Shown piece by piece: positions 1 to 16,803 of a stretch of DNA of 36,797 nucleotides. The DNA lies in contig WFZZ01000006.1 of assembly GCA_015489315.1 (NCBI GenBank), positions 1-36,797 on the forward strand, written 5' to 3'. The notes beneath the pieces were generated by a model, which searched no databases, was not told where the DNA came from, and saw only the letters and a program-made list of their open reading frames with translations. How positions within the stretch are numbered: position 1 is the first letter of the stretch; every line of letters starts with the position of its first letter. The position numbers and the translations under genes are program-made. Origin of the DNA: Deltaproteobacteria bacterium. Lineage in GTDB: Bacteria > Desulfobacterota > Dissulfuribacteria > Dissulfuribacterales > QOAL01.

Positions 1-246
1 AGTTACTACTGTGCGAAATGCATATATAACATCTTTAGGTATTTTTTTATTCCAATATTTACACTCACAAAGATAAACCATAGCAGGAGTACTACAAACA
101 TCCTCTACATATACATCGATTTTCTTGGTACCTCTTGCTAATTTAATCTCCTTTTCCAGTTCTGTTTTGCAACCAATTTCATCAAATAACTGCTTAACAA
201 GATCCTGTAATTCCTTCCAATTTTGTGGTTCCCTGTCAAAGATCAT
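1..246 (-). CDS. Restriction endonuclease-like (PD-(D/E)xK) protein, truncated by window start; probable integron cassette 2 gene
   Basis: Own translation of the minus strand from ATG at 246: MIFDREPQNWKELQDLVKQLFDEIGCKTELEKEIKLARGTKKIDVYVEDVCSTPAMVYLCECKYWNKKIPKDVIYAFRTVVT, open to the window edge. KIDVYVED...YLCECKYW matches the D...ExK nuclease signature. Confidence 0.7.
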   Translation of the reverse strand, partial: MIFDREPQNWKELQDLVKQLFDEIGCKTELEKEIKLARGTKKIDVYVEDVCSTPAMVYLCECKYWNKKIPKDVIYAFRTVVT

Positions 247-335
247 ATACTACCTTGCCAACATTTCTTTTAATTAGATTGGATCTCCAATAAAAGCTTT
301 CATGTTAATGAACTCTGAGATATTTGCAGCTAGTA

Positions 336-408
336 AGCCAACGTCCAGGGTCACTTGCCGCTGTGGAGCGCCAGCGGAACAGCGGTCAAGTGGACCCGTT
401 TGTTAGCG
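336..408 (-). repeat. attC: attC recombination site (integron cassette 59-be)
   Basis: Plus strand AGCCAAC(336-342)-GTCCA-GGGTC ACTTG CCGCTG-loop-CAGCGG[T386]CAAGT[G392]GACCC-GTTT-GTTAGCG(402-408). A 16-bp imperfect hairpin with two extrahelical bases (T and G) on the same arm, an unpaired spacer, and terminal R''/R' core boxes. Confidence 0.88.
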
Positions 409-424
409 AATAATATATTTTATT

Positions 425-619
425 TCAAGTGGATATATCCATTTTTAACACTTTGTCATGAATGTCTACAATCCCCAAACTTTTAATATCCCCTCTGATC
501 TTCTGAACCAATATCTCAAAATCTGAATCGCATGACGAAGAATAATAATCTTTTGCTTCCCATAATTCTTGTAATATATGATCTGTCTCTTTAATCTCAA
601 TATCTTCTTTTCTATTCAT
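425..619 (-). CDS. Small antitoxin-like protein paired with PIN toxin
   Basis: 64 aa ORF, overlaps the end of the PIN gene by 8 nt in the same orientation. The pattern ...ILQELWEAKD...CDSDFEILVQKIR... resembles small proteins often encoded next to this PIN subfamily. Confidence 0.6.
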   Translation of the reverse strand: MNRKEDIEIKETDHILQELWEAKDYYSSSCDSDFEILVQKIRGDIKSLGIVDIHDKVLKMDIST

Positions 620-1082
620 TGACTATCTCCTGTGGCGTACATATTGTCGGAACTACCAAACCTGCATCGAAAGAAATTTTCTGCAATTTTCGTATAAAGT
701 GAGCGTTAGCTAAGTGCCTACAATTCCACGTTAAAAGAAAATCCATTTGATAATGTGTTGCTATGGCAACATGTAACGCATCATCTCTAGCCTTTTCAGG
801 TAGCAGTGCTTTCCTAAAAAAGAGCTCTGCTAATTCAATACATTCCTTTGTGATTTTCAATACTTTAATTTCTTTTGCAACATCTATTCTCAACTTAACT
901 GCTCTTTCATCTCCACGTGAACATTCCGCCAACACCAATTCAGAAATGAAAATATTGTACTTATTTCTTTCACTATCCCACCAATCATATGTAATTTTTT
1001 GACGCGCAGCCGATATTAAATTATTACTCGGCCGTGCAACAAGATAGCTAATTATTGATGTTTCAATATATAAATATTCCAT
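612..1082 (-). CDS. PIN-domain protein, VapC-like toxin
   Basis: MEYLYIETSIISYL... (first acidic residue E7), LAECSRGD, KARDDALHVAIATHYQMDFLLTWNCRHLAN: typical PIN acidic-motif layout. Confidence 0.8.
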   Translation of the reverse strand: MEYLYIETSIISYLVARPSNNLISAARQKITYDWWDSERNKYNIFISELVLAECSRGDERAVKLRIDVAKEIKVLKITKECIELAELFFRKALLPEKARDDALHVAIATHYQMDFLLTWNCRHLANAHFIRKLQKISFDAGLVVPTICTPQEIVNE

Positions 1083-1126
1083 CTATTCCCTTTTGCATAC
1101 AGTTTGGCAACTTAATATAATTTTAC

Positions 1127-1421
1127 CGCTAACATTACCTTATTAGACATCATCGAAATTTTTTTAGCACGTAATAATTGTTGGAGCAAGGGAAAATTTT
1201 TGAGGCACTTTATTTCTGAACCTACTGAGTATGAATGATGTTTCGTTAAATTAGGTGCACTTTGCTTTTGCAGAATAGAAAAAGCATTGTAGAGCAATAT
1301 CAGATAATTAAGCAGCAAATGAAGTGATTTTTTTGACGTTAGACTGATATGGTTCAAGTACCTGTTTAAAATTCCACTTACAAAAATATTTGTTTAATGT
1401 TATGGTTATATTAAAAATATT
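1127..1421 (-). promoter_or_regulatory. attI: Probable attI region and divergent promoter zone between intI and first cassette
   Basis: Non-coding AT-rich DNA between the intI 5' end and the first cassette. Ends in core site AATGTTAGCGG (minus strand, 1133-1127). Confidence 0.6.
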
Positions 1422-1448
1422 TTGCTCAACACAATAAATTCTTGTGTC

Positions 1449-2705
1449 ATGAATAATAAAAAAAATGATATTTTTGATGATTTTGAAATTTTTTTGATAC
1501 AAAATAACTTTCCTGAAAGGCAAGTGCCGTTTTATGTTACATGGGTAAAGAAGGGGTTAAAGTTTTTCCGAAAAGGTTCTGGAGCAAGATTGAATTCCGA
1601 TGAAACTAATAGATTTTTGAAAAGTCTTTCTGAAAGGTTTTCCGACTGGCAGATCAGACAGGCTCAAGAGGCCATAAAACTTTATCATTTTTTTCTTGAT
1701 AAAGAATTGAATAAAGAAAAGGGTTTTCCTTCTCAGAACAAAAAGGCGTGGGATGAGTGCATTTCCAGAATGAAGAAAAGGATAAGGCTAAAGCACATGT
1801 CTTACCGAACTGAAAAGGCATATATTTCATGGGCTGAGAGATTTATGCACTTTACGGATTTTAAGGAGCCGACATCTCTCGCCAGCCATGATTTGCAAAA
1901 CTATTTGACGTACCTGGCAGTTGAAAGACAGGTTGCTCCTTCGACTCAAAATCAGGCATTGAATGCTCTGGTCTTTCTTTTTGGAAATGTCCTCGGCATA
2001 GATGTAAAAGATGCTATAGATGCTGTAAGGGCCAAGGAAAAAAGACGCCTTCCTGTAGTATTGTCTCAAGATGAAGTGCAAAGAATAATGGAAAATCTGA
2101 CAGGTGTTTACAAGTTGATAGGTAAGCTCATTTATGGATGTGGTCTTAGGCTTCAAGAAGCGGTGACGCTCAGGGTAAAGGATATTGACCTTAAAAGGCT
2201 GGTTCTAACAGTTAGACAAGGGAAGGGAGACAGGGACAGGGTTACGGTTCTTCCGGAAACTCTTGTTGAGCCTTTGAAAGGACACTTGGCAACCATCAGA
2301 AAAATTTATGAAAATGACAGGAAGGATGACATACCAGGTGTTTATCTTCCAACTGGACTTGAAAGAAAGTATCCAGATGCAGGAAAGAGCTGGGAGTGGT
2401 TCTGGGTATTTCCATCAAAAAGGCTTTCTGTAGATCCAATTTCAGTAGTTGTGAGAAGGCATCATATTAACCCTTCTGCCATGCAAAGGGCATTTAAAAA
2501 AGCAATAAAGGCAGCCGAGATACCTAAAAATGCAAGTGTCCATTCATTAAGACACAGCTTTGCCACACACCTTTTGGAATCAGGTTATGACATTAGGACA
2601 GTGCAAGAGCTTTTGGGGCACAAACATATCCAGACCACCATGATTTATACCCATGTTGCAAAGAAAAATATCCTTGGCGTGGTCAGTCCCCTTGATAAAA
2701 TGTAA
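1449..2705 (+). CDS. intI: Integron integrase (IntI-type tyrosine recombinase) with extra N-terminal domain
   Basis: TGLERKYPDAGKSWEWFWVFPS...DPISVVVRRHHI is the IntI-specific insertion. Catalytic residues: R in CGLRLQEA, K in RQGKGDRDR, HSLRHSF, LLGHKHIQTTMIYTHV. The supplied ORF begins at TTG 1422; ATG at 1449 is preferred. Confidence 0.95.
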   Translation: MNNKKNDIFDDFEIFLIQNNFPERQVPFYVTWVKKGLKFFRKGSGARLNSDETNRFLKSLSERFSDWQIRQAQEAIKLYHFFLDKELNKEKGFPSQNKKAWDECISRMKKRIRLKHMSYRTEKAYISWAERFMHFTDFKEPTSLASHDLQNYLTYLAVERQVAPSTQNQALNALVFLFGNVLGIDVKDAIDAVRAKEKRRLPVVLSQDEVQRIMENLTGVYKLIGKLIYGCGLRLQEAVTLRVKDIDLKRLVLTVRQGKGDRDRVTVLPETLVEPLKGHLATIRKIYENDRKDDIPGVYLPTGLERKYPDAGKSWEWFWVFPSKRLSVDPISVVVRRHHINPSAMQRAFKKAIKAAEIPKNASVHSLRHSFATHLLESGYDIRTVQELLGHKHIQTTMIYTHVAKKNILGVVSPLDKM

Positions 2706-15057: not shown

Positions 15058-16803
15058 CTAAAATGTAATTCTCAATATCTCTTCCATAGTGGTTATTCCT
15101 TCAAGCATCTTTTTGCACGCGTCATATTTAAGAGTCCTCATCCCCTCTTTAAAGGCAACCTTTCTTATCTCATCTTCAGACCTTTTCTGATGGATCATGG
15201 CCTTAATTTTCGGCGAAATAGACAAGACCTCATAGATGCCAATTCTTCCAAAATAGCCAGTATTTCTGCACTTATCACATCCTTTTCCATGATAAACCCT
15301 GACACGCTCCGTATTTACCTTCACGCCAAAGGCCCTTAATTCTTCTTCCGATATCCAGTAGGACTCCTTGCAGTTTGGACAGATGGTCCTTACGAGCCTT
15401 TGTGCAACTACACCAATTAAAGTTGATGAAATGAGATAGGGCTCAAGGCCTAGGTCCATTAGTCTTGTAATGGCTCCAACTGCGTCGTTAGTGTGAAGGG
15501 TAGAAAAGACAAGATGCCCTGTCAAAGAGGCCTGAACCGCATAGCGGGCAGTTTCGTTATCTCTTATCTCTCCTATCATTACTATATCAGGGTCCTGTCT
15601 TAGGATGTTTCTAAGTATGCTTGAAAAGGTGACATCAATCTGAGGCTGGACCGCTATCTGGTTGAAATCTTCATAGACCATCTCGATTGGGTCTTCAATG
15701 GTTATGATATTGACTTCGGGGCTACTAAGATATCTTAGGGAGGAATAGAGAGTGGTGGATTTTCCGCTCCCTGTAGGGCCGGTCATGAGTATCATTCCAA
15801 AGGTGTTTTTCAAAAAATTTCTGTAGGTCTCAAAGTCCCTTTTTGAAAAACCGAGTTTGTCTAGATCGCTCATAAGGATCTCTGCACTTTGAAGCCTTAG
15901 AACGAGCTTTTCTCCAAAGGCCACTGGAACTGTGGAAACACGGACCTCTGCCTCCTGTCCCTTCCAGGAAAGCTTGATCCTTCCATCCTGAGGGCGTCTT
16001 TTTTCCGAGATATCAAGGCGGGAAAGTGCCTTTATTCTTGTGCAAAAGGCCTCATGGATGATCCTTGGAAGCCGGTAGATGGTATGGAGGATTCCATCGA
16101 TTCTAAAGCGAATTACAGTTTCATTCCTCTTGGGCTCAATGTGGATATCGCTTGCCCTCTCATTAAGGGCATATTGAAAAAGGTGGTCAACTGCCTTGTT
16201 AATGTGTTTATCACTGGGGGATGTGCCATCTTTTGCAGAAAGTTTGACGTACTGTTCCAAGTTAGAAATATCTACCTCAGGGGCAGAAAGCACATCTTGG
16301 GCGGCAGAAATCGACCTTCTAAAATCAAAAAACTCCCCTATTACCCTTTCAATATCGCCTTTTGGAGAAATAAAGAAGCGTACATCACACTTGGAGACTC
16401 TTTTAATATCCTCTTCAAGCTCCTTGTCCCAAGGCTGATATGTACTTATTTCCAGCACATCATTTTCAAAGGCTACTGGAATAACAAGTCTTGTCTTTGC
16501 AAAGGATGCTGGAAGGGTCTTTGTGACCGTCTCCATGTCAAGTTTAAGCGGGTCAAGCCTTTTAAAGGAAAGCCCCTTGTCTTCGCAGATAAGTCTCAGT
16601 ATATCTGCCTCATTGAGGCTTTTTGAAGGGTCATCCTTTCTTAAGATCTTTTGATGGTGAAGCCACTGAACAATATCTATCCCCTTTCTTTCGGCAATGT
16701 GGCTTTTTGTCCTTAGTCTTTCAAGGGTTTCACTATCTATTAACCCCTTTTTTTCAAGGAGTGAGAATATATAATCTTTATCCTTATAGATATTTTGGGT
16801 CAT
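15058..16803 (-). CDS. GspE/PilB family type II/IV secretion ATPase
   Basis: Walker A MTGPTGSGKSTTLYSSL, EDPIEMVYEDFNQIAVQPQIDVTFSSILRNILRQDPDIVMIGEIRDNETA, zinc CPNC...CDKC. Preferred start is MTQNIYKDK; the supplied ORF extends to 16854. Confidence 0.95.
   Translation of the reverse strand: MTQNIYKDKDYIFSLLEKKGLIDSETLERLRTKSHIAERKGIDIVQWLHHQKILRKDDPSKSLNEADILRLICEDKGLSFKRLDPLKLDMETVTKTLPASFAKTRLVIPVAFENDVLEISTYQPWDKELEEDIKRVSKCDVRFFISPKGDIERVIGEFFDFRRSISAAQDVLSAPEVDISNLEQYVKLSAKDGTSPSDKHINKAVDHLFQYALNERASDIHIEPKRNETVIRFRIDGILHTIYRLPRIIHEAFCTRIKALSRLDISEKRRPQDGRIKLSWKGQEAEVRVSTVPVAFGEKLVLRLQSAEILMSDLDKLGFSKRDFETYRNFLKNTFGMILMTGPTGSGKSTTLYSSLRYLSSPEVNIITIEDPIEMVYEDFNQIAVQPQIDVTFSSILRNILRQDPDIVMIGEIRDNETARYAVQASLTGHLVFSTLHTNDAVGAITRLMDLGLEPYLISSTLIGVVAQRLVRTICPNCKESYWISEEELRAFGVKVNTERVRVYHGKGCDKCRNTGYFGRIGIYEVLSISPKIKAMIHQKRSEDEIRKVAFKEGMRTLKYDACKKMLEGITTMEEILRITF

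Follow-up and report, generated by a model that had tools for sequence, protein, structure and literature searches.

Where does an integron gene cassette begin and end, and can its limits be read from its own letters? This question is raised by a 36,797-nucleotide contig of a Deltaproteobacteria bacterium of the order Dissulfuribacterales (WFZZ01000006.1, here G000:C6; the assembly has 2.4 Mb in 266 contigs), which was analysed as a whole and is called the window. Its anatomy, as read from the sequence, identifies the locus almost certainly as the first cassette of a sedentary chromosomal integron. An integrase gene lies on the plus strand and, divergent from it on the minus strand, there are a putative attI region, cassette 1, the attC site of that cassette and a truncated cassette 2.

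The original prediction located three boxes on the minus strand, and all of them were found there when the letters were re-read: GTTAGCG at 1133-1127, CGCTAAC at 408-402 and GTTGGCT at 342-336. GTTAGCG, the start of the cassette, is exactly complementary to the cassette's own R'' box (CGCTAAC) in 7 of 7 letters, as had been proposed. In the 36.8-kb window it occurs exactly twice on both strands taken together, at the attI junction and, inverted, in the R'' box, when 0.83 copies are expected by chance. With the crossover placed between G and TT (1133/1132 and 342/341), the unit extends from 1132 to 342 and measures exactly the predicted 791 bp. It starts TTAGCGGTAAAA and finishes TGACCCTGGACG. 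The reasoning behind these limits was that an R'' box pairs with the start of its own cassette and that the letters at the integrated 3' junction belong to the next one. This argument is identical to the definition of the ACID annotation scheme, in which a cassette runs from the first T of its start core to the first G of the next core and its attC is that of the circular form (PMC2674596). The two GTT cores are also given as cassette boundaries in PMC3053210, with reference to Hall 1991 and Stokes 1997. The features of the locus are the following:

1449..2705, plus strand: integron integrase gene, 418 aa from its ATG (TIGR02249; alignment with IntI4, PDB 2a3v)
1134..1448, minus strand: attI region between the integrase and the first cassette, with putative outer limits (position; likeness to attI ends in relatives)
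1127..1133, minus strand: attI/cassette junction core GTTAGCG; the first G belongs to attI and TTAGCG to cassette 1
342..1132, minus strand: gene cassette 1 as a putative excisable unit of 791 bp (rule of own start and own R''; G030 homology ending at 342)
612..1082, minus strand: PIN-domain (VapC-like, toxin-like) gene, 156 aa (Pfam PF01850)
425..619, minus strand: 64-aa partner gene, possible antitoxin (frame and overlap conserved; no family)
336..408, minus strand: integrated form of the cassette 1 attC, from R'' to R' (covariance model, DNA fold)
402..408, minus strand: R'' box CGCTAAC, which pairs in full with GTTAGCG at the cassette start
336..342, minus strand: 3' junction core GTTGGCT, with the G of cassette 1 and the TTGGCT of cassette 2
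1..341, minus strand: start of cassette 2, truncated by the contig end (the contig begins at base 1)
1..246, minus strand: Mrr-type restriction-endonuclease gene, first 82 aa (Pfam PF04471)

Cassette starts and R'' boxes in related arrays

The relatives were genomes with similar attC sites, and 20 of their attCs, with the window left out, served to build a covariance model. This model recovered the site at 336-408 with 84.6 bits (E 2e-22), and a covariance search matched the attC family in 38 of 47 searched genomes of the lineage; an Rfam search gave no match. The site, at the 3' end of the cassette, shows the attC hallmarks, namely GTT/AAC cores, an imperfect inverted repeat and a folding single strand (DNA fold z -3.4/-3.7). 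Joining the cassette ends lowers the predicted folding energy from -19.8 to -24.3 kcal/mol in the bottom strand, where the R boxes are now paired, and from -18.5 to -22.9 kcal/mol in the top strand.

In arrays with consecutive attCs, each R'' box was compared at four variable positions with the start of its own cassette and with that of the next. The own start was perfect in 22 of the 30 internal cassettes, whereas 20,000 permutations averaged 2.6 and never exceeded 10; the next cassette's start was perfect in only 2/30. All 16 comparisons from the seven best-preserved arrays matched the own start; because these arrays were chosen for their strong attCs after the overall result, this value is descriptive only, and the figure free of selection is 22/30. 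The rule also held for the cassettes next to attI in the window, G005, G002, G015 and G016 (5/5), with 7, 8, 8, 9 and 8 matching letters, respectively. For 36 first-in-line or isolated attCs, an upstream 7-mer complementary to R'' was present in 19, with 3.7 expected, and many of the failures were degenerate sites. The P values of these comparisons are indicative, as related sequences are not fully independent.

The pair GTTAGCG/CGCTAAC falls outside the strict consensus GTTRRRY/RYYYAAC, as do 20 of the 30 cassette starts of the relatives, so complementarity, and not the consensus letters, is the evidence. Since only 10/30 starts fit GTTRRRY and the pattern is missed by 16 of the 22 perfect pairs, the agreement with the own start is not a by-product of the consensus; typical integrons differ in this respect, as few cores of the relatives have the form GTTRRRY and that of the window does not. 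Of the 22 perfect pairs, 16 were also complementary at the 8th position (27% expected, P about 1e-5). Extended R-box pairing of 9-11 nt has already been published for most cassettes (PMC2727003), so this was rejected as a novelty. The relatives agree with the published pattern, most of them reaching 8 letters or more, whereas in the window the 8th position is mismatched and pairing stops at exactly 7.

A conventional pathway would account for this arrangement. The bottom strand of attC would fold into a hairpin, and cleavage by the integrase would separate G from TT within two GTT cores, one at the attI junction and the other in the cassette attC. Excision would join 1132 to 342, closing a circle of 791 bp with a predicted junction of CCCTGGACG followed by TTAGCGGTAAA; in this circle CGCTAAC would lie opposite GTTAGCG, the sequence with which it pairs. 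Integration would then put TTAGCG at the left end, and the right end would borrow TTGGCT from the next cassette. We infer from these sequences that cassette 1 would be both excised and reintegrated.

Mobility, decay and the unity of cassette 1

The two-gene unit was found, whole or in part, in G030 (90% over 755 bp), G036, G013, G020 and G018. Base 342, where cassette 1 is predicted to end, is also exactly where the similarity to G030 stops. That the cassette occurs in further genera and families within the order is in line with mobility. In the G036 copy (C57, about 635-690; L060), an insertion of about 50 bp separates the beginning of the R'' box from the attC stem.

Several observations weigh against this interpretation. 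Neither an excision product nor a circle or an empty site was observed, and none of the five other copies has an intact 5' end, owing to contig edges or decay. Eight of the 30 internal cassettes were imperfect for their own start, mostly at weak, distant or widely spaced sites. The attC of cassette 2 is absent from the assembly by DNA search, by pattern and by the covariance model at a loose threshold. The original prediction had called the cassette boundaries provable. Its sequence anatomy is right and its rule was validated in the relatives; its wording was too strong, because excision is inferred and an intact 5' end is missing from all five other copies.

The cassette could have been fixed long ago in an integron that is now inert, its complementarity being a relic. 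At the loose threshold, the genome contained no second intact attC, only a degenerate site in contig C197 (42 bits) and two marginal matches (E 0.1 and 0.4); the array may therefore be short or decaying, and there is no sign of movement within this strain. However, the integrase reading frame is intact. The protein matches TIGR02249 with 431.6 bits (cutoff 265) and aligns continuously over residues 110-417 with IntI4, its best solved relative (272 bits), a stretch that includes both the integron-specific region and the catalytic motifs LRLQE, HSLRH and GHKHIQTTMIY. In addition, the attC retains its stem and perfect R pairing, which the decayed copies in G013, G036 and C197 have lost. We consider an inert integron unlikely.

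The 791-bp unit would not be the natural one if the true cassette were larger or a composite such as two fused cassettes, but this is very improbable. The unit does carry two genes where one is usual, but there is no attC remnant between them, and the R'' box matches the start at 1133. The PIN gene (PF01850, 30.6 bits, cutoff 23.6) is conserved in G030, G013 and G020 and partly in G036. Its stop is overlapped by 8 nt by the 64-aa gene, and the two genes travel together in G030, G013, G036 and G020, where the overlap and the reading frame of the smaller gene are kept. The small gene, which is conserved in full in four other genomes and in part in one, matched no Pfam or NCBIfam family. Because its frame and overlap are preserved and the ratio of nonsynonymous to synonymous substitution rates against the window copy is 0.26-0.55, we regard it as a real gene. 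From the position of its gene, the product would be an antitoxin, and the two genes would form a toxin-antitoxin pair. VapC-like families share the PIN domain and a small overlapping partner gene; the present pair differs in that the toxin gene comes first and the partner lacks a Pfam or NCBIfam family. No PDB relative was detected by sequence.

Practically negligible is the probability that the match of GTTAGCG with CGCTAAC reflects chance or the plain R-box consensus and holds no boundary information: the shared GTT/AAC leaves just four informative letters, with an own-start expectation of about 9% per cassette under shuffling, but the 7-mer is confined to these two places, the relatives match far beyond that expectation and most perfect pairs break GTTRRRY. 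Chance and consensus were rejected as explanations by the permutation.

Integrase, attI and the second cassette

The nearest integrases are encoded in metagenome-assembled genomes (MAGs) that bear the titles Deltaproteobacteria bacterium (93% over residues 86-418) and Candidatus Desulfofervidaceae bacterium (57%). Unlike the integrases of typical integrons, the protein is extended at its N terminus by about 105 aa (window 1449-1780); the Desulfofervidaceae relative (57%) is matched as far as residue 24 and an Akkermansiaceae MAG (41%) as far as residue 20. Immediately 5' of the integrase ATG there is a perfect inverted repeat, ACACAA-N7-TTGTGT (1429-1447). Because the repeat is unique in the genome, it would be a dedicated operator or a chance occurrence, and not a genome-wide SOS box. 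The position of attI next to the integrase fits, and the bases preceding the GTT junction resemble the attI ends of G005, G002, G015 and G016, in which TATTAnnAnT precedes GTT. The contig of the closest relative, G004, ends inside the integrase gene, so a close comparison is not available. An attI-like end, TATTGGGAAT followed by GTTGGGC, was also seen with two cassettes in G003 (C165, about 12258; L066). No integrase was found in that genome, and it may have been lost or be missing by assembly.

For cassette 2, it had been predicted that the R'' box should be close to AGCCAAC. Judging by the rates in the relatives, if this cassette is intact, its box very probably reads exactly AGCCAAC, and we would expect a box within one mismatch of it with slightly greater confidence. 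The first 82 codons of its Mrr-type nuclease gene matched PF04471 (24.1 bits, cutoff 21). The gene had no homologue in the order and none in viral contigs, and its distant homologues occur in the phylum and on plasmids. Only the homologue in G172 sits between attCs that allow an analogous comparison of start and R''. That Mrr-like cassette follows the rule (start GTTCGGC, R'' GCCGAAC), the similarity of the genes being weak (E 3e-4).

Solitary cassettes and significance for the lineage

The degenerate attC in C197 (4013-4096; L085) belongs to the same family; it stands directly upstream of a dapB-like gene and is preceded by a small gene of ribbon-helix-helix appearance and an apparent PIN-gene tail. 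It is probably a solitary decayed cassette within a lysine-biosynthesis cluster. The PIN and partner unit of cassette 1, with a decayed attC, was likewise seen between argF-like and argG-like genes in G013 (C151, about 15383-16130; L061), so in this lineage biosynthetic clusters may be places where solitary cassettes settle. The right junctions of solitary attCs (L056, L118, L127, L128, L132 and L133) read GAT instead of GTT, with GATACAT, GATATGT, GATCGCT and GATTGTT. Such ends resemble the GWT motif that is reportedly found at secondary attG insertion sites.

With sedentary chromosomal integrons (TIGR02249; IntI4) the locus shares the divergent integrase, a putative attI junction, an attC 3' of the cassette genes, R''/R' boxes, a folded attC with extrahelical bases, and toxin-antitoxin-like and restriction cassettes; the window integron is assembled only as its first cassette and part of the second. 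The boundary finding is correct, textbook and ordinary, a well-preserved instance without a new mechanism. Across the order, it is conceivable, although we hold this as rather doubtful, that the core box is defined by self-complementarity and not by GTTRRRY, that its variable bases drift freely as long as they remain paired, and that the cassette pool moves between families and leaves solitary copies in biosynthetic clusters at GAT-type secondary sites. The exact boundaries of a cassette are now given for this uncultured lineage, together with a checked rule for parsing its arrays even at broken contigs: the R'' box predicts the cassette start.
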